Source: Microbacterium sp. LWH3-1.2 (GTDB taxonomy: Bacteria; Actinomycetota; Actinomycetes; Actinomycetales; Microbacteriaceae). From it: a stretch of DNA of 64,000 bases. Positions within the stretch are counted from its first letter, which is position 1. Each line of letters starts with the position of its first letter. The DNA lies in the NCBI RefSeq assembly GCF_040675855.1, contig NZ_JBEGIK010000001.1, positions 2,976,001 to 3,040,000 of the forward strand, written 5' to 3'. The position numbers and the translations under genes are program-made. This document shows positions 5,154-12,169 of this stretch, in pieces. A model generated the notes under the pieces. That model made no database searches and was not told the DNA's origin. It saw only the letters and a program-made list of their open reading frames with translations.

Positions 5154-5576
5154 TCACGGCGACGCAGCGGGAGCAGCGCGCGAGAGCGTAAGCGTCCAGA
5201 TGTTCTGGAGGTCGCTGCGGCGATAGTCGAAGTCATCGACGAGGGCGTTGATGAGCGCGATGCCACGGCCGGATTCAGCGAGCGGGTCGGGCATCTCACG
5301 TGGGCGCATGTCAATGTCGGGCTCATCGGCGGAGTCGGTCAGCACGGCTCGGAGCGCGTCGGCGTCCGCGACGACGTGCAGACTGCAGAGGATTGCCGCG
5401 TGAGACGAGGCGTGTTGCAGCACGTTGGAGGCGAGTTCGATGACGGCGGTCTCGAAAGCCCAGCGATCAGGGCCGGCGACCGTCGGTTCGTTCCGCCACA
5501 ACGCGTCGAGCCCCGCGTGGACGACATCGACGCTGTCGGGCGGTGCGCGGAACGTGATCGTCAGTTCAGACACCGT
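5154..5576 (-). CDS. RsbW-type anti-sigma/serine kinase ATPase (HATPase_c)
   Basis: This protein of about 140 residues carries a GHKL ATPase N-box (ELASNVLQHAS) and a G-box (ESGRGIALINALVDDFDY), the signature of RsbW/SpoIIAB-like kinases. These bind a STAS antagonist and phosphorylate its Ser/Thr. The start is taken as GTG 5576, overlapping the end of the STAS gene by 11 bp; an upstream ATG at 5597 in the same frame is possible. It is the last gene of the operon OpgC fusion, GT2, STAS, ATPase. No sigma factor lies beside it, so its target may be something other than sigma. Confidence 0.85.
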   Translation of the reverse strand, partial: TVSELTITFRAPPDSVDVVHAGLDALWRNEPTVAGPDRWAFETAVIELASNVLQHASSHAAILCSLHVVADADALRAVLTDSADEPDIDMRPREMPDPLAESGRGIALINALVDDFDYRRSDLQNIWTLTLSRAAPAASP

Positions 5577-5898
5577 ATGCCTCGTCCGGCGAGGCATAGC
5601 TCGCGAGCACCCGATCCAGGCTCGATAGGCGAAGCACCATCAATACCTGATCGGTCGGCCGCGCGATCCGGAGGTCCCCGTCGGCCTGCCGCGCCGCCTT
5701 CAGGCATCCCACCAGTGCGCCGAGCCCCGACGAGTCGATGAACTCCACCCCGGCCAGGTCGACGACGATGCGATTCCCGTGGTCGGCGATAGCCCGCGTC
5801 ACGACCGACCGGAGTACCGGTGCGCTGATCAGATTGAGTTTGCCGACCGCGCGCACGATCGCGACCCCTGATCCTCTGTCCTCAACCTCGAACTGCAT
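5566..5898 (-). CDS. STAS-domain anti-anti-sigma-like switch protein
   Basis: This is a single STAS domain of about 110 residues. The phospho-acceptor loop is EFIDSSGLGALVG, with candidate serines at 56 and 57. It would cycle between phosphorylated and free forms under the ATPase encoded immediately downstream and the PP2C phosphatase encoded at 10.5 kb. The ATG at 5898 lies inside the 3' end of the glycosyltransferase gene (17-bp overlap), which ties its synthesis to that of the synthase. A longer in-frame start at 5919 would intrude further. The pairing as a partner-switch triad is inferred from family knowledge and gene order. Confidence 0.87.
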   Translation of the reverse strand: MQFEVEDRGSGVAIVRAVGKLNLISAPVLRSVVTRAIADHGNRIVVDLAGVEFIDSSGLGALVGCLKAARQADGDLRIARPTDQVLMVLRLSSLDRVLASYASPDEAYGV

Positions 5899-7918
5899 CG
5901 ACGGCCCCCTTCTCTTCATCGGTCTCCGGCTCGAAGCCGGTGTAGGTCACCGCGCTCAAGAGCACGCTCAGGATCACGAGGTCGAAGACCGCCCACCCCA
6001 CGTTGACGAGCGTGCCGACCGGATCCGCCCCGCTGAAGATCATGTGGAGCGTCCCGACGACGATCGCGAGCACGAGTATCGCCATCACGATCAGTTGCAC
6101 ACGGATCAGGTGCCACTGCGGTCCGTTCATCTGCGGGCGTGTCTTCGGCGTCACGGCGAAGCCGAGCGGGATGCGCAGCACGACGTTGTCGAACGCCGTT
6201 CGGCACGCCTTGATCCAGACGGGGAACAGCGCGAGGCTGTACTGCTGTCCGCGCCACGTCGGCGTGCCTTTCGCCGCCACGAGGAAGAGCAGCTGGTTCA
6301 CCAGCATGAAAGGGATGAACCGCACGAAGAACTCGAAAGCGGTCGTCGATACTGGAAGGATGCCGAGCACGAGGTAGATGATCGGCGCGGAGATGTACAC
6401 GACCGACGCATAGCCGCTCAAGTAGCTCCACATGGTGGCGAAGTACATGAGGCGCTGCGGCACCGACAGGGCGCGCTGAACGAGGGGGTTCTCGCGCAGG
6501 AACACCTGCATCGTCCCCTGCGCCCATCGCAGCCGCTGCGTGAGCATGGTTCCGAGGTCTTCCGGGGCCAGGCCGTCGGCGAGGAGCTCGTGGTGGTACA
6601 CACTCTTCCAGCCGAGGCCGTGCAGGCGCATACAGGTCGCCATGTCCTCCGTGACCGAGATCGTCGCGAGCGGCATCACGGGCTGTGCTTCACCGGGCCG
6701 GTCGACGGCGATCGTCTGCAGGATCGCCTGAACGGACTCGAGTGCGTTGAGCGGGGAGAGGTCCCGCTCGGACAGTGCCATGACGATGTCTTCGACGTAA
6801 GTCTGTGCGGCATCCGACTGGTCCCCGCCGCGCAGCCGGGCGAGTTCGCGGATCTCCGCTAGGTCGGCTTCGACCCCCGCGACATCGGAAGCAACGAGCG
6901 AGTAGCCGGCGGCGTCGACACGGGAGTGCAGGTCGTAGGTGATCGACGCGACGGACGCCCCCGACTCGAGCTCCGCGCGCGCCTGTGCGAGTGCCGCAGC
7001 GACGTCGTCTAGTGCGGTACGGACTGCGGGATCTTTCGCCGCTGGGTGTGCCACGGCTTTCGTGACGGCGCGGGATCCTGCCCGCAGCGCGGCGGCGAGG
7101 CGCTTGTCGAGATCGCGCACGTAACCCACGATGCCGAGCTGCATCAGGGCCTCGCGGCGCAGCACAGCATTGGATCCGCAGAAGAACGCCGCATTCCAGC
7201 CGTCCTTGCCCTGCTGGATCGGCCCGTAGAAAAGCGGGGCCTGGCTGCCGAGTGGGTCGCCGGTCGCGACGTTGGAGAAGACCTGCGGCGTCTGCACGAG
7301 CGCGACCTTTTCGTCGCGGAAGTAGCCCAGCGTGTGCTCCAGGATCTCCGCATGCGGGATCTGATCGGCGTCGAGGATGAGGATGAACTCACTCGTCGTC
7401 TGCTCGAGCGCGTTGTTGAGGTTGCCGGCCTTGGCATGCCGAGGGACGTCTTCCGTCCAGACTTCAGAGCGCGTGATGTAGCCGATCCCCGCCTCTTCCG
7501 CTGCGGCGCGCATCCCCGGGCGGTCACCGTCGTCGAGCACCCAGGTGCTGTGCGGGAAGCGCACCGCCTTGGCGGCGAGGGCCGTCGTCATGACGAGGTC
7601 GATCGGCTCGTTGTAGGTCGTGATGAAGACGTCCACCGTCGCGTCGGGATCGGGAGCAGGAGGCGCGGGGCGGCCCCGCGCGCGCCACATCGTCATGCCG
7701 AACAGGCCCACGTCGACGAGGCTGTAGGTCTCTGCGATCACGAGCGGCACGGCGATCCACCACGCGCTCCAGTTGAGTGAGTCGAGCCACCGCCACGCCA
7801 CGTAGTTGATGCCGAGCACAAGCGTGAGCACGACGATGACACGAAGCAGGAGCATGCGCCCCGGCGATGCGAGGGTGCTCTGTGTGTCGACCTCTGCGGG
7901 CCCCTCGAAGGCGCTCAC
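5882..7918 (-). CDS. Cellulose-synthase-like family 2 glycosyltransferase with internal insert
   Basis: This membrane synthase has 678 residues, two N-terminal helices (about 22-40 and 50-75), a cytosolic GT-A domain and about five C-terminal helices. Catalytic landmarks of processive GT2 enzymes are present: TYNEP (101-105), DDG (129-131), DAD (183-185), TED (423-425) and QRLRW (461-465). There is no PilZ domain, so direct c-di-GMP control as in BcsA is not expected. Residues about 263-419, between the acceptor-site CGSNAVLRR region and TED, hold an Ala-rich mostly helical insert of roughly 155 residues; ordinary members have only a few residues there. GTG 7918 overlaps the upstream OpgC-fusion stop. 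The product is a beta-glucan-like polymer by family; the sugar is unknown. Confidence 0.9.
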   Translation of the reverse strand: MSAFEGPAEVDTQSTLASPGRMLLLRVIVVLTLVLGINYVAWRWLDSLNWSAWWIAVPLVIAETYSLVDVGLFGMTMWRARGRPAPPAPDPDATVDVFITTYNEPIDLVMTTALAAKAVRFPHSTWVLDDGDRPGMRAAAEEAGIGYITRSEVWTEDVPRHAKAGNLNNALEQTTSEFILILDADQIPHAEILEHTLGYFRDEKVALVQTPQVFSNVATGDPLGSQAPLFYGPIQQGKDGWNAAFFCGSNAVLRREALMQLGIVGYVRDLDKRLAAALRAGSRAVTKAVAHPAAKDPAVRTALDDVAAALAQARAELESGASVASITYDLHSRVDAAGYSLVASDVAGVEADLAEIRELARLRGGDQSDAAQTYVEDIVMALSERDLSPLNALESVQAILQTIAVDRPGEAQPVMPLATISVTEDMATCMRLHGLGWKSVYHHELLADGLAPEDLGTMLTQRLRWAQGTMQVFLRENPLVQRALSVPQRLMYFATMWSYLSGYASVVYISAPIIYLVLGILPVSTTAFEFFVRFIPFMLVNQLLFLVAAKGTPTWRGQQYSLALFPVWIKACRTAFDNVVLRIPLGFAVTPKTRPQMNGPQWHLIRVQLIVMAILVLAIVVGTLHMIFSGADPVGTLVNVGWAVFDLVILSVLLSAVTYTGFEPETDEEKGAVDAVRG

Positions 7919-10395
7919 CGGGGCACCACCACGAAGAGGAAGCGCGTCTTGACCATGACCCACAGCAGGGCGAGCACGACGAGGTACGCGAGCGTGTCGA
8001 TGAGGACATTCCCTTCGTGGAGGACGGGGACGTTGGCCACCAGCAGGACGAAGAACACGTGCATGATGAACACGTACAGCGTGGCCTGCCCAAGGGGGAG
8101 GAAGAACCAGCCGAACAGTCGATTCACCGGCTTCCACAGCACGCTCAGCAGCGCGTACGCCGTGATCGTCACGAGGAAGACGTTGAGGAGCCGTCCGGGC
8201 TCCAGCGTCGTCCGCTCGAACAGGCTCGAGTATATGGAGGCGTAGGCGTTGGACGGGACGAGTCCGAGGCGCATATCGTACGCGCTCGAGAGGTATGGGT
8301 TGTTCCACGAGAAGACGGCCAGCGCCACCGTCGCCAGGACGCACAGGCCCAATGCGATCGAGCCGATCCTCGTCTGGAACCAGACGAGGATCTCCCGTCG
8401 GTGGAACCCGGCGACGGTACCGGTGACGAACAGCACCTGCCAGGTGAGCAGAGGGAACGAGTCCTCGAATTGCGAGGGGAGGACGCGGATCGAGAGGAAT
8501 CGTTCGATCACATAGACGGCCCAGCTGACAGCGAGTACGAGCGCCCAATTGCGCCTCGAGAGCGCCCACAGGATCAGCGGTGAGAGCGCGAGCATCACCA
8601 CGTAGAGGCCGAGCACGTTGACCTGCCAGGGGCCGAGCCGGAGCAGCGCGATGTCGACGACGATCGAGGGGTCCACGGGGTAGCGCAGGAGCGTCTCGAA
8701 GTTGGCGTAGAGCTCGTAGATGCGCCCCGTCGCCTCGCTGCCGGCAGCGCCCGTACCCTGATCGGTGAATGTCGTCACAGGTGTGGTGTTGAGGAAAGGC
8801 AGCAGGCTCAACGCGCCGATTATCATCACGACGACGAGCGCCGTCACGTACAGTTTCCACGCCCGTTGCGTCGTGCGGACCGTCACCTCCCCGACTCCGC
8901 CAGCCACGAGCTTCGGGCGATACACCATACCGAGAACGGCGCCCGAGAGCAGGACGAACAGCTCCGCACCGGACACGACGCCGATCGCCTCCTGTGTCGC
9001 GTTCTGCAGGAGCGATGTCAGCGCGAGGTGATTGACGACGACGAAGACGATCGCGACACCGCGCAGCAGATCGATGCGAAGGTCGCGGTTAGGGGGCCCA
9101 ATGTAGGCGAGACTCCCGACTCTGCCGCGCCGCAGCCCCCACACGAGCAGGAACGCCGTTGCGGCGAGCACGATGACGACGACGGCCCAGGCCGGCGCGC
9201 CCGAGATCGTCAGGCCGTTCGCCGTCGCCGTGCGGACGCCCGAGGGTGTGTAAACGGGGCCGAACACGAGCGGCCCGCGCTCCACGTCGGCCCGGAACGC
9301 GGCCGCGACAGCGGGATCGCTCGAGATGCTCCAATCGATGACCACCTCCCCCACCGCGACGCGCCGTGACGAGGAGTCCCGCCACAGCGCGACGTCGATC
9401 AGCGGGTAGTCGCCGCTGGTGAGAGCGTCGATGCTCTGCTGCCACCACGCTCGTTTGATCGCGAGAGCGGTCGCACCTCCGCTGCCGGGTGAGTACAGCG
9501 CCGCGGTCTCAAGGAGCATAGGCGTCCGGGTCGCGGCGGCGAACCGTCCGTAGAAGTCGAGAGCCCCTCGGCCCGACAGGTCGGAGAGGAGCGTGCCCTC
9601 TGCCGGGATCGCGTTGACGGGCGGTCCACCGCCGCTGGCGTCGTGATACGCGGCGAGACCGACCCAGTCGACGTACGAACGCCCCGGGTAATACGGGCCG
9701 TAGGGGTCGTCGCCGAAGCCGAGGCGCCCGTCAGCGTTCGTATCAAGGCCTGCCTCGTGAACTGCGCGCGGATCGGCGAACGGGTACGACTCGCCCGCGA
9801 GTGGCGACCAGACGAGTGCAGCATCGGGCAGGGATGCGTGCAGAGTGTCGGCGAACAGCCGGAACGCTGCGACATACGCCGCGGGCTCCTGACCCCACGG
9901 GACCCAGCTCGCGTTCATGTCGGGCGCAAACCGGACGTAGAAGGGCTGGTCGCCCTTCCCACTTGCGGCGAGCGAGTCGACGGCTTCTTGAGCCGCCTCC
10001 CGATCGAAGTCCGCGAGGCCGCCGGCAGGCTGCAGCGTGACGATCGGGATCGATCCCTCGGCGTGGCTCTGGCGGAAGAACTCGCCGAGGTACCGTTCCT
10101 CGTCGTCAGTGATGGGGAGTGTGGTGGTGTGCTCATATGCCGCCGGAGTGAGCCCGAGCCGATCCGCCTCCAGCCCTGCGTTGTCGATGCTCCAGTCGAG
10201 CGTGACCCCGAAGTACGCTCCTGACGACGGCGAGAGTGGCGCCTGCTCGGCGGGGACGACCGGAGGGGTCGGAGCGACAGCAGCCGCGGGGGAGGCTGCC
10301 AAGGCTGTCGACAGGAGCACGATTGCCGCAGCCCCCGCCAGGATCCTTCCCAGAGCGGCGCGCGACAGAACGTCCGTCAGTCGGCGAGCAGCCAC
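7915..10395 (-). CDS. Secreted GH26-like glycosidase fused to an OpgC acyltransferase domain
   Basis: The 826-residue protein begins with a signal peptide (residues 1-40, ALAASPAAA cleavage region). Residues about 55-370 resemble a GH26/mannanase-type barrel. YVRFAPDMNASWVPWGQ (143-159) aligns with the family's acid/base motif (usually H-E-M-N-x-x-W-Y-P-W), and LLETA (284-288) supplies the nucleophile Glu286. A transmembrane segment (393-411) leads to an OpgC-type domain (about 427-826, RIDLLRGVAIVFVVVNHL) with about ten helices, which in E. coli succinylates periplasmic glucans. GTG 10395 follows a strong AAGGAAGGAG site. The fusion would trim or sense and O-acylate the polymer made by the downstream synthase. 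Asp149 stands where Glu is expected, so hydrolysis is uncertain. Confidence 0.85.
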   Translation of the reverse strand: MAARRLTDVLSRAALGRILAGAAAIVLLSTALAASPAAAVAPTPPVVPAEQAPLSPSSGAYFGVTLDWSIDNAGLEADRLGLTPAAYEHTTTLPITDDEERYLGEFFRQSHAEGSIPIVTLQPAGGLADFDREAAQEAVDSLAASGKGDQPFYVRFAPDMNASWVPWGQEPAAYVAAFRLFADTLHASLPDAALVWSPLAGESYPFADPRAVHEAGLDTNADGRLGFGDDPYGPYYPGRSYVDWVGLAAYHDASGGGPPVNAIPAEGTLLSDLSGRGALDFYGRFAAATRTPMLLETAALYSPGSGGATALAIKRAWWQQSIDALTSGDYPLIDVALWRDSSSRRVAVGEVVIDWSISSDPAVAAAFRADVERGPLVFGPVYTPSGVRTATANGLTISGAPAWAVVVIVLAATAFLLVWGLRRGRVGSLAYIGPPNRDLRIDLLRGVAIVFVVVNHLALTSLLQNATQEAIGVVSGAELFVLLSGAVLGMVYRPKLVAGGVGEVTVRTTQRAWKLYVTALVVVMIIGALSLLPFLNTTPVTTFTDQGTGAAGSEATGRIYELYANFETLLRYPVDPSIVVDIALLRLGPWQVNVLGLYVVMLALSPLILWALSRRNWALVLAVSWAVYVIERFLSIRVLPSQFEDSFPLLTWQVLFVTGTVAGFHRREILVWFQTRIGSIALGLCVLATVALAVFSWNNPYLSSAYDMRLGLVPSNAYASIYSSLFERTTLEPGRLLNVFLVTITAYALLSVLWKPVNRLFGWFFLPLGQATLYVFIMHVFFVLLVANVPVLHEGNVLIDTLAYLVVLALLWVMVKTRFLFVVVPR

Positions 10396-10532
10396 TGTGC
10401 TCCTTCCTTGTGGCGACTACACAAAGATCGGCGCAAGACCGCGTCGTCGAGCCTGGACGATCAGAAGCATATTGCACACGCGGCGCACGGTGCTGAGGTG
10501 CGGGACGTCACGGGCAGGACACATCGCATCGC

Positions 10533-10538
10533 TAGGGT
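10533..10538 (+). promoter_or_regulatory. -10 box of GAF-PP2C phosphatase gene
   Basis: TAGGGT lies seven bases before GTG 10546, consistent with a leaderless transcript running away from the polysaccharide operon. The 150-bp divergent region should also hold the operon promoter, which I could not place. Confidence 0.45.
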
Positions 10539-10545
10539 GGGGCGC

Positions 10546-11706
10546 GTGATGGAAGGCAGCGAATCAGACCGGCTCATGAGTTTGCGCGAGCTGCAGATCT
10601 TCGGCACGCCTCCCGAGGAGCGGTTCGACCGCATCACCCGCCTCGCTCGAGAGGTATTTGACGTCCCCGTCGCCGAGATCAACTTCATCGACGCGGAGCG
10701 TCAGTTCACGAAATCGCCACAGCCGCCCGGCGCGGAGGTTTACACACCGCTCGACGTGTCGTTCTGTGACGTCGCAGTGAGATCGCCCGGGATCCTCGTC
10801 GTCCCCGACGCCGCAGACGACGACCGTTTCTCCTGGAAGGAGAGCGTGACGGGCGAACGGCACGTGCGGTTCTATGCGGGCCGCCCGCTCAGCGTCGCGG
10901 GAGGCCCGCTCGTCGGCACACTGTGTCTCGTCGACACGAAGCCTCGCGACTTCGGCACCGACCAGCAGCTCCTTCTCGACCAGATGGGCACGTGGGTCGA
11001 GCGCGAGCTGCACGCGAACGCCGAGATGGAGCTCGCCGCCCGCGTGCAGGGAGCTCTCTTGCCCGCCAGCCGGAAGCTCGCTCACGGATTCTCGATCGCA
11101 GCCCACTCTCGCCCGATCGGGGTCGTGGGCGGCGATTTCTACGCATGGCACGACGACGGCTCTCATGTGACCCTGCTGCTCGCAGACGCGATGGGCAAGG
11201 GTGTCGCAGGAGCCATCATCGCCGCGACGGTTCGTGCGGTGGCGCTAGGTCACCTCGACGTCGATCCGGTCGCTCTCCTCCGGTCCATCGATCGGCGTCT
11301 CGATGACGATTTCCGCCGCACTCAGACCTTCGCGACGGCGTTCGCGGCACGGGTCGAGCTGTCATCAGGAGAAATCGAGTACGCGGATGCCGGCCACGGT
11401 CTCTCCGCGGTGCTTCGCGCCGACGGCACCATCGAGCCCCTCCCGGCGACCGGCATGCCTCTCGGACTCTCATTGCACGCCGAATGGACTGTCCGTCGAT
11501 CCCGCCTCGCTTCGGGAGACTCAATGATCTCCGTAACCGACGGCGCCCTGGATCTGGGTGACGGGACCGTCCACGCGCTCAATCAGGTCTTCGCAGCGAT
11601 CGACCGTGAGGGCGACGCCGGCGCACGGCTCGCACCGCTACTCGCCAGCCTGGACGCCGTCACGCTCACCGACGACGTAGCGGCTGTCGTGCTGACCCGC
11701 ACGTAG
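10546..11706 (+). CDS. GAF-domain PP2C (SpoIIE/RsbU-type) serine phosphatase
   Basis: The protein has about 386 residues. The N-terminal half (about 15-150) is a GAF sensor domain that includes GRPLSVAGGPLVGTLCLVD. The C-terminal half is a SpoIIE-type PP2C domain with metal-binding motifs GGDFYAW, LADAMGKGVAGA, YADAGHGL and SVTDGALD, all intact. It should dephosphorylate a STAS protein, and the obvious partner is the STAS protein at 5.6-5.9 kb, since the gene is divergent from that operon. GTG 10546 fits a leaderless start; ATG 10549 is the next codon. The GAF ligand is unknown. Expected output: an environmental signal shifts the STAS protein to its free form. Confidence 0.88.
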   Translation: MMEGSESDRLMSLRELQIFGTPPEERFDRITRLAREVFDVPVAEINFIDAERQFTKSPQPPGAEVYTPLDVSFCDVAVRSPGILVVPDAADDDRFSWKESVTGERHVRFYAGRPLSVAGGPLVGTLCLVDTKPRDFGTDQQLLLDQMGTWVERELHANAEMELAARVQGALLPASRKLAHGFSIAAHSRPIGVVGGDFYAWHDDGSHVTLLLADAMGKGVAGAIIAATVRAVALGHLDVDPVALLRSIDRRLDDDFRRTQTFATAFAARVELSSGEIEYADAGHGLSAVLRADGTIEPLPATGMPLGLSLHAEWTVRRSRLASGDSMISVTDGALDLGDGTVHALNQVFAAIDREGDAGARLAPLLASLDAVTLTDDVAAVVLTRT

Positions 11707-11719
11707 CTCGCCACCTCAG

Positions 11720-12063
11720 GTGACGACGTTCGATACCCGCATCAGGCTGGGCACCGATCCACAAGCCATGCTGCGGCCGCCCGTCACCGACGACGGAGAC
11801 TCGTCGCAGTGGCGGAAGATCCTCGCCGACGCTGGCGTGCCTCGCACCCGCCGCGACACGTCGCGGCGCACGGCAGCGTCAGTCCTTATCGGGCACGGCG
11901 CCGACCCGGCGCCGGGGGCCGCGATCCTCGGGCACGGCGACCCCGGGTTCACCCTGCACACCTTCGTGCACGGCATCTACGAGAGAGGTGCACGCGGCGG
12001 TGTCCGTGCTGGAGAGGGTGCTGGATGAGATGCACGCCCCAGGCAAAGCTCGACGGAACGACA
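11720..12063 (+). pseudogene. Degraded C-terminal fragment of a tyrosine recombinase/integrase
   Basis: The reading frame 11720-12028 contains WRKILADAGVPRTRRDTS, RRTAASVLIGHG and AAILGHGDPGFTLHTFVHG. This matches the C-terminal catalytic region of phage-type tyrosine integrases (normally WRxLLxxAG..LHDxRHTAA..LGHxxxxxTxxxYxH). The HxxR His is replaced, the catalytic Tyr context is lost and a frameshift follows, because the typical tail (EVHAAVSVLERVLDEM) continues in a different frame from about 11985. Only the last third is left. It abuts a tRNA-Gln, a usual integration target, so it is probably the scar of a lost prophage or integrative element. Confidence 0.6.
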
Positions 12064-12089: not shown

Positions 12090-12097
12090 TCGTATGG

Positions 12098-12169
12098 CTG
12101 GGGTACCTGGACTCGAACCAAGAACAACTGAACCAGAATCAGCCGTGTTGCCAATTACACCATACCCCA
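12098..12169 (-). tRNA. tRNA-Gln (anticodon CTG)
   Basis: The reverse strand folds as a tRNA: acceptor TGGGGTA/TACCCCA, anticodon loop TTCTGGT giving CTG, and TTCGAGTCC in the T arm. G is the discriminator, followed directly by an encoded CCA (12095-12097). It lies 69 bp downstream of gltX on the same strand. In actinobacteria, which usually lack GlnRS, this tRNA is first charged with Glu by GltX and then amidated by GatCAB, so the adjacency is functionally sensible. Confidence 0.95.

Follow-up and report, generated by a model that had tools for sequence, protein, structure and literature searches.

A partner switch encoded with a cellulose-synthase-type polysaccharide synthase in actinobacteria: candidate control of the synthase itself

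The 64,000-nucleotide stretch of the Microbacterium sp. LWH3-1.2 genome analysed here (contig NZ_JBEGIK010000001.1, positions 2,976,001 to 3,040,000; the window) encodes a polysaccharide synthase of glycosyltransferase family 2 (GT2) in a run of four genes that also specifies a GH26-like/OpgC fusion, a single-domain STAS protein and an RsbW-type ATPase. A gene for a GAF-PP2C phosphatase diverges from the other four (Table 1). A sequence-only reading of the window had described all five genes, and its description is confirmed; it had proposed that the phosphatase, STAS protein and ATPase form a partner switch that directly controls polymer synthesis or export. We consider it probable that the partner switch controls the cellulose-synthase-type GT2 after translation, with unphosphorylated STAS binding the synthase and activating or permitting it.

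Table 1. Features of the synthase and partner-switch locus, in positions of the window
Feature	Position	Strand	Details
RsbW-type serine kinase/ATPase (HATPase_c_2)	5154..5573	-	PF13581 53 bits; GTG start 5573, alternative ATG 5597
Single-domain STAS protein	5566..5898	-	PF01740 66.8 bits; TIGR00377 73.9 bits, above cut-off; alternative upstream ATG 5919
Predicted phosphoserine codon, STAS Ser63 (DSSGL)	5731..5733	-	aligned to DST of RsbV 6m36_B
GT2 polysaccharide synthase, 678 aa, cellulose-synthase superfamily	5882..7918	-	Pfam Cellulose_synt/Glyco_trans_2_3
Proximal insert part, GT2 residues ~263-342, predicted helical	6893..7132	-	absent from BcsA; modelled helices
Distal insert part, GT2 residues ~343-390: third-helix end, low-confidence stretch, conserved SPL motif	6749..6892	-	
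GH26-like/OpgC fusion, 826 aa	7915..10395	-	GH26-like ~9283-10215; OpgC membrane acyltransferase ~7945-9087
Divergent GAF-PP2C (SpoIIE-type) phosphatase	10549..11706	+	SpoIIE 92.9 bits, GAF 48.3 bits

Read from the sequence, each junction between the four co-directional genes is an overlap. The OpgC and GT2 genes have GTGA in common, and GTGTCTGA is common to the STAS and ATPase genes, the ATPase GTG at 5573 overlapping the STAS stop. The STAS gene begins within the synthase gene, as had been reported: the overlap is 17 bp if translation starts at ATG 5898, the better candidate, which follows AAGGGGG, and 38 bp if it starts at ATG 5919. This is ordinary coupling.

To judge from sequence, every component of an Rsb-type switch is present: a PP2C phosphatase, a STAS protein with a putatively phosphorylatable serine and a HATPase_c_2 kinase. 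Their key residues are kept, in line with the sequence-only reading. In alignment, STAS Ser63 falls on the first Ser in the DST motif of RsbV (6m36_B), which we take to be the phosphosite, and Ser occupies this position in all 74 GT2-adjacent STAS proteins with an ATPase at the loci of named species described below. Glu54 and Asn58 of the ATPase are invariant across all 37 alignment rows, window included; the window ATPase reads DSA where several relatives carry D-x-G. The phosphatase has the motifs GGD, DAMGKG and TDG. At two loci the ATPase and the GAF-PP2C phosphatase are fused in one open reading frame (ORF; L094:7364-9016 and L105:7256-9109). These fusions, a SypE-like combination, lie upstream of the GT2 cassette and are preceded by a second STAS.

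Elsewhere in the genome (3.94 Mb, 99.99% complete), related proteins are of other kinds. The STAS protein of the locus is the sole protein above the TIGR00377 cut-off, and four weaker matches (L026-L029) are SulP-type transporters by eye. Among 11 HATPase_c_2 (PF13581) matches, the locus ATPase alone lies in a short open frame (161 aa vs 429-1058 aa), and the seven others that were read (L002-L008) resemble sensor kinases. The two SpoIIE-profile (PF07228) matches are the locus phosphatase and, by eye, a Stp/PstP-like phosphatase. With one STAS protein passing the cut-off, one short HATPase_c_2 protein and two SpoIIE matches, the locus is therefore the only complete partner switch seen in the genome.

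The synthase carries the motifs DDG, DAD, FFCGSN, TED, QRLRW and FAVTPK. The modelled protein has BcsA (9b8v_E) as its best Foldseek match, which points to the membrane channel fold of cellulose synthase. Against TIGR03030 the protein scores 345 bits (cut-off 699), and the Pfam scan gave no PilZ match, so that the earlier description of a synthase without a PilZ domain stands. It thus resembles BcsA in superfamily, catalytic motifs, nearest PDB fold and the retained FxVTxK gating-loop motif, and differs from it in lacking PilZ, in falling below the TIGR03030 cut-off, in its STAS partner and in an extra helical insert.

This insert sits between FFCGS and TED. When a profile of 57 synthase rows (the window and 56 of 80 loci from named species) was compared with E. 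coli BcsA, one large break appeared, at which BcsA passes from residue 447 to 449 and the clade has ~150 extra positions. The span from Gly262 to Thr423 measures 155-167 residues in the 57 clade rows vs 7 in five CelA-like outgroups, which were taken from 36 weaker GT2 matches and all lack the insert. An AlphaFold model from the same 57 rows (mean pLDDT 81.7) places predicted helices at 255-289, 297-318 and 323-360, with block means of 75-95 up to residue 350 and 63 beyond it; after these, 363-387 is of low confidence and 389-403 is again modelled as helix. S388 and P389 are invariant in the alignment.

We then have two samples in which to follow the cassette: a family set of 150 Microbacteriaceae genomes, and 80 loci of named species, the best of at least 568 relatives and those most similar to the window. 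The 80 named loci are not independent, many coming from Arthrobacter relatives and at least two (L143, L152) being identical to family loci (L092, L091). Their genera include Rathayibacter, Cryobacterium, Arthrobacter, Pseudarthrobacter, Kocuria, Nocardioides, Williamsia, Gordonia, Rhodococcus, Cellulomonas, Tessaracoccus and Clavibacter. One record (L177), titled Kitasatospora arboriphila, has nearly identical domain coordinates to Williamsia muralis L156; it is possibly mislabelled or contaminated and was not used as evidence for Streptomycetales.

A neighbourhood search of the kind suggested with the sequence-only reading found STAS directly downstream of GT2 in 75/80 named loci, the ATPase in 74/80, and adjacent STAS, ATPase and phosphatase together in 71/80. 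The concern that the STAS and ATPase genes might not be conserved with the synthase is clearly countered by these counts. The phosphatase lies directly upstream in 64 loci and elsewhere in the fetched stretch in 10 more. The five loci without an adjacent STAS comprise a contig end (L162), two with an inverted STAS-ATPase pair nearby (L133, L139) and two with none in the stretch (L166, L185). The match to the STAS profile starts no later than the GT2 stop in 68 of the 75 loci (median -4 bp), and 56 of the 60 STAS matches that begin at a start codon overlap GT2.

In the family set, GT2 matches above 700 bits occur at 24 loci in 23 of the 150 genomes, with STAS within 500 bp at 22 of the 24, the ATPase at 23 and the phosphatase (at least 200 bits) at 20, the latter two within the fetched stretch. 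The GT2 loci of G133 and G118, which are about half identical, also adjoin a STAS found by profile. Over all strong GT2 matches, STAS lies within 500 bp in 22/26, and a divergent STAS lies at that distance in two of the remaining four; the corresponding figure for weaker GT2 matches is 0/36, even within 3 kb, so the pairing exceeds chance. STAS and ATPase are present in an identical set of 32/150 genomes, which includes all 23 with GT2 above 700 bits. The distribution of the cassette is patchy and the GT2 tree mixes families, which fits horizontal spread as a unit. Sets of STAS and ATPase, with or without the phosphatase, also occur with no GT2 of this clade in the fetched stretch (L067-L081). 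Their neighbours are varied, and among 10 ORFs neighbouring such orphan trios, some of them maybe in the wrong frame, there was no common candidate target.

A second type of locus, GT2-STAS followed by a GH26-like gene, occurs in six genomes (G133, G118, G352, G231, G416, G375); where the phosphoserine would be, its STAS proteins carry Ala or Pro (TPAGL, TAAGI, GASGV twice, SPSGI, SPSGV). We looked for fusions among the loci reached by the genome and related-locus searches. In G133, GT2 and STAS form one open frame of 830 residues, with Pfam matches to both Cellulose_synt and STAS; in G352 they are two ORFs in the same frame with one stop between them. No ORF with two of the five searched families was found in L106-L185. 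A separate case is Microbacterium rhizomatis (L147), whose STAS has Trp at the phosphosite (DWSGL) and whose locus has no ATPase or phosphatase; in the tree its GT2 groups with the window GT2, apart from the second type. We had considered that the L147 GT2 might be a broken gene and rejected this, as the two-piece profile match lies in one 655-codon open frame with a shortened insert.

In five of these seven phosphosite-less genomes (G133, G118, G416, G375 and that of L147) a search at E 1e-5 found no ATPase of this family. STAS was present in 12/12 exception genomes searched, a count that leaves out the genomes of L133 and L139. The synthases have changed as well. By alignment to the window GT2, residues 340-388 are missing from L147 and residues 345-388 from the second-type protein L065, as is most of 343-390 from the remaining five second-type GT2s; the proximal insert helices are retained in L147 and in all six second-type proteins. 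Counted between motifs, which was possible for 117/136 non-outgroup GT2 rows (some of them repeats of one gene), the insert is 117-124 residues long in six second-type rows and 151-173 in the other 111. The motif did not catch L147, whose insert spans 109 residues by alignment. Thus kinase, phosphosite and distal insert segment were lost together in two lineages. These joint losses argue that STAS is worth retaining with the synthase when no kinase is left, that its unphosphorylated form is useful and that the distal segment serves switching. The sequence-only reading had overlooked the insert, the fusion and the phosphosite-less variants; its idea of direct control gains support from the kinase-less genomes that keep STAS beside GT2 or fused to it.

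No sigma gene lies at the locus, as had been noted. In the genome, 16 Sigma70_r2 matches are, by eye, one principal sigma factor and proteins like those of the extracytoplasmic function (ECF) group, and the best match to TIGR02980 (SigBFG), at the principal sigma factor, reaches 130.6 bits (cut-off 234). We set the line for a SigB/F/G-type factor at 160 bits, in the gap between 164 and 137; 1/150 family genomes passes the curated cut-off. No cognate factor above 160 bits was found in the genome of the window. Such matches occur in 18/150 family genomes and are absent from 12 of the 21 with an adjacent GT2-STAS pair, the window's included, so that in those 12 the cassette runs with no such sigma factor found. 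Six sigma queries gave a sigma-like ORF in only 2 of 120 fetched stretches, both weak and ECF-like, one ~8 kb away (L088) and one at 0.8 kb (L176). The latter (L176:6599-7168), on the opposite strand upstream of GT2, is the only sigma-like ORF close to a cassette in the stretches searched. That the ATPase binds only a sigma factor encoded elsewhere, the outcome that the sequence-only reading had set against itself, is made less likely by the SigB/F/G counts, although an ECF or principal sigma factor might still be the partner.

The mechanism that we favour would work as follows. The GAF-PP2C phosphatase, answering a signal via its GAF domain, would restore unphosphorylated STAS. This form would be the output of the switch: it would dock on the cytosolic side of the synthase, most likely on the helical insert, and be needed for synthesis or activate it. 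The RsbW-type ATPase would phosphorylate STAS on Ser63, STAS would leave the synthase, and synthesis would stop. The distal insert segment would make the synthase depend on the switch, for example as an autoinhibitory loop; we assign it this role because it was lost together with the kinase and the phosphoserine. An activating sign is proposed since a permanently unphosphorylatable STAS that is retained or fused makes little sense as an inhibitor. Taken more broadly, and with somewhat better than even confidence, we propose that STAS is an activating subunit seated on a dedicated synthase insert, its occupancy set by the co-encoded kinase and phosphatase and read by the distal segment. This would be a widespread actinobacterial control and an alternative to gating by PilZ and cyclic di-GMP (c-di-GMP), with STAS turned into a fixed subunit, once fused, in at least two lineages in which kinase, phosphosite and distal segment are gone. 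The stronger statement of the sequence-only reading, that the switch replaces c-di-GMP, found no support: the genome has three GGDEF matches, and the absence of PilZ leaves room for another c-di-GMP site.

Several observations weigh against this interpretation. The model of the synthase is of low confidence at 237-247, 363-387 and 413-420, beside and inside the insert, and mean identity in the insert is 0.55 vs 0.82 in the N-terminal GT part. The GT2 tree carries long-branch warnings. The joint losses are two independent events only, and G352 and G231 carry a phosphosite-less STAS and yet have an ATPase, beside a separate ordinary cassette. A GT2 of this clade is missing from nine of the 32 genomes with STAS and ATPase, and among 46 STAS matches 24 lie more than 500 bp from such a GT2 (two of these ~1.6 kb upstream of one); the trio can thus have other uses. 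In L166 and L185, GT2 stands alone at the locus and STAS is elsewhere in the genome. A mirror-tree test on the 63/80 named loci with all four genes in the usual order did not discriminate, with r of 0.83-0.94 for all pairs; partial correlations peaked with GT2, which is both the longest protein and the one with the least noise, and this makes the test uninformative on direct binding. To these are added the fit of the joint losses to docking of the ATPase, the ATPase-only neighbours of two synthases and an enrichment of sigma genes, all taken up below.

As RsbW does as an anti-sigma factor, the ATPase could itself bind and inhibit the synthase, perhaps on the distal segment, with dephosphorylated STAS acting mainly to remove it. 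The identical set of 32/150 genomes in which STAS and ATPase co-occur would be expected of such a pair, G031 and G105 retain an ATPase beside GT2 while STAS is elsewhere, and the disappearance of the distal segment where the kinase is gone fits docking of the ATPase on that segment equally well. This explanation by itself leaves STAS without a job in the five genomes that keep it beside GT2, once fused, with no ATPase found, and the gene directly adjoining GT2 in 75/80 loci is STAS, not the ATPase; we regard it as unlikely. Nearly the same low weight goes to an ordinary transcriptional switch, in which the ATPase would bind an ECF, principal or SigB/F/G sigma factor whose gene lies elsewhere, the synthase gene being no more than a co-transcribed client. 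The protein families are those of anti-sigma switches, orphan trios without GT2 exist, and L176 has its ECF-like ORF 0.8 kb from GT2. SigB/F/G matches above 160 bits are also about six times commoner in genomes with an adjacent GT2-STAS pair (9/21) than in the others (9/129), as a sigma link would explain, and this speaks somewhat for transcriptional control; none of these genes was found at the locus of the pair. Transcriptional control leaves unexplained why GT2 and STAS are once fused, why some STAS proteins have no phosphosite, why the insert segment was lost and why the linkage is to one GT2 clade; the 12/21 carriers with no SigB/F/G match above the line and the rarity and weakness of sigma-like ORFs near the cassette also speak against it.

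The switch could also act on another product of the operon, such as the OpgC acyltransferase or the GH26-like hydrolase, or on polymer export. The OpgC/GH26 fusion is part of the same coupled operon in the window, and at all six second-type loci a GH26-like gene comes after the GT2-STAS pair. A GH26-OpgC model match of at least 300 bits is found in 18/80 named loci (16 across the whole model), other loci having weak matches or none in the fetched stretch, vs GT2-STAS in 75/80. The GH26-like domain, preceded by a signal-like helix, is probably extracellular, while STAS is cytosolic. We therefore think a target among these products very improbable, and control of the synthase through unphosphorylated STAS remains the reading that we prefer.

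The protein families are those of RsbU-RsbV-RsbW and SpoIIE-SpoIIAA-SpoIIAB; unlike in these sigma switches, the locus has no sigma gene, and a search of the genome found no SigB/F/G-type factor. Closer in output is SypE/SypA of Vibrio fischeri, where, in the sections of two papers available to us, a kinase/PP2C protein acts on a single-domain STAS protein that controls biofilm below transcription (PMC10120452, PMC8256260). The same sections describe SypA as active when unphosphorylated and state as unknown both its target and, more generally, the binding partners of unphosphorylated output STAS proteins such as SypA and HmpV; they describe no coupling or fusion of SypA to a synthase. Here, in contrast, the STAS gene is coupled to that of a single synthase clade, which has an insert of its own, and kinase and phosphatase are usually separate proteins. 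An excerpt on V. vulnificus and V. parahaemolyticus reports SypA with no sypE orthologue (PMC4517449), a situation that, so far as that excerpt goes, resembles the kinase-less genomes described here.

In SiaABCD of Pseudomonas aeruginosa, according to the portions consulted, SiaC binds and activates the co-encoded SiaD via helical stalks (PMC8457831, PMC7647112), a possible parallel to the helical insert that we offer as a lead. As described there, SiaC is phosphorylated on Thr68, and the enzyme is a diguanylate cyclase through which polysaccharide is reached via c-di-GMP, whereas the candidate target here is the synthase itself. By analogy the present switch may work like SypE/SypA and SiaABCD. 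STAS domains occur in other machines and enzymes: MlaB, whose chains were matched, is part of a lipid transporter, and Anabaena all4160, compared by its description in part of one paper, is a glycosyltransferase with an N-terminal STAS domain (PMC8256260) and so a precedent for a STAS domain within an enzyme. Among the titles and abstracts listed by searches of an open-licence library, which lacks most subscription papers, none describes a GT2-STAS-kinase-phosphatase operon, and the terms STAS, anti-sigma and PP2C do not occur in the main text of an operon survey (PMC7112194).

In many soil and plant bacteria a synthase gene is joined to a three-protein phosphorylation switch of a type whose usual role is in gene expression, and our results suggest that this switch works directly on the synthase. 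Tens of actinobacterial species have a STAS gene coupled to that of a polysaccharide synthase, in one case by fusion, and the synthase offers candidates for both a docking element and a switch segment. If the proposal is true, biosynthetic membrane enzymes are also direct targets of anti-sigma-type switches, and sequence would predict which actinobacterial polymers are switched in this way and which are always on.

As for the product, the C-terminal part of the fusion matches OpgC_C (PF10129) with 222 bits. The N-terminal part has no Pfam match and no PDB sequence match; its AlphaFold model resembles GH26 lichenases by Foldseek (E 2e-12). At 9919-9921 the window has PDMN where the consensus of a 16-row alignment is PEMN. 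The Glu of PEMN is at what looks to us like the GH26 acid/base residue, and the window hydrolase may therefore be altered. From the GH26-like domain and OpgC, we would guess at an acylated, beta-glucan-like polymer.

Beyond the phosphatase gene, a 102-aa ORF (11720-12028) was suspected by eye to be the remnant of an integrase C-terminus; it has no Pfam or PHROGs match and was set aside. The end of the cassette adjoins a tRNA-Gln(CTG) gene (12095-12169), possibly an island edge.

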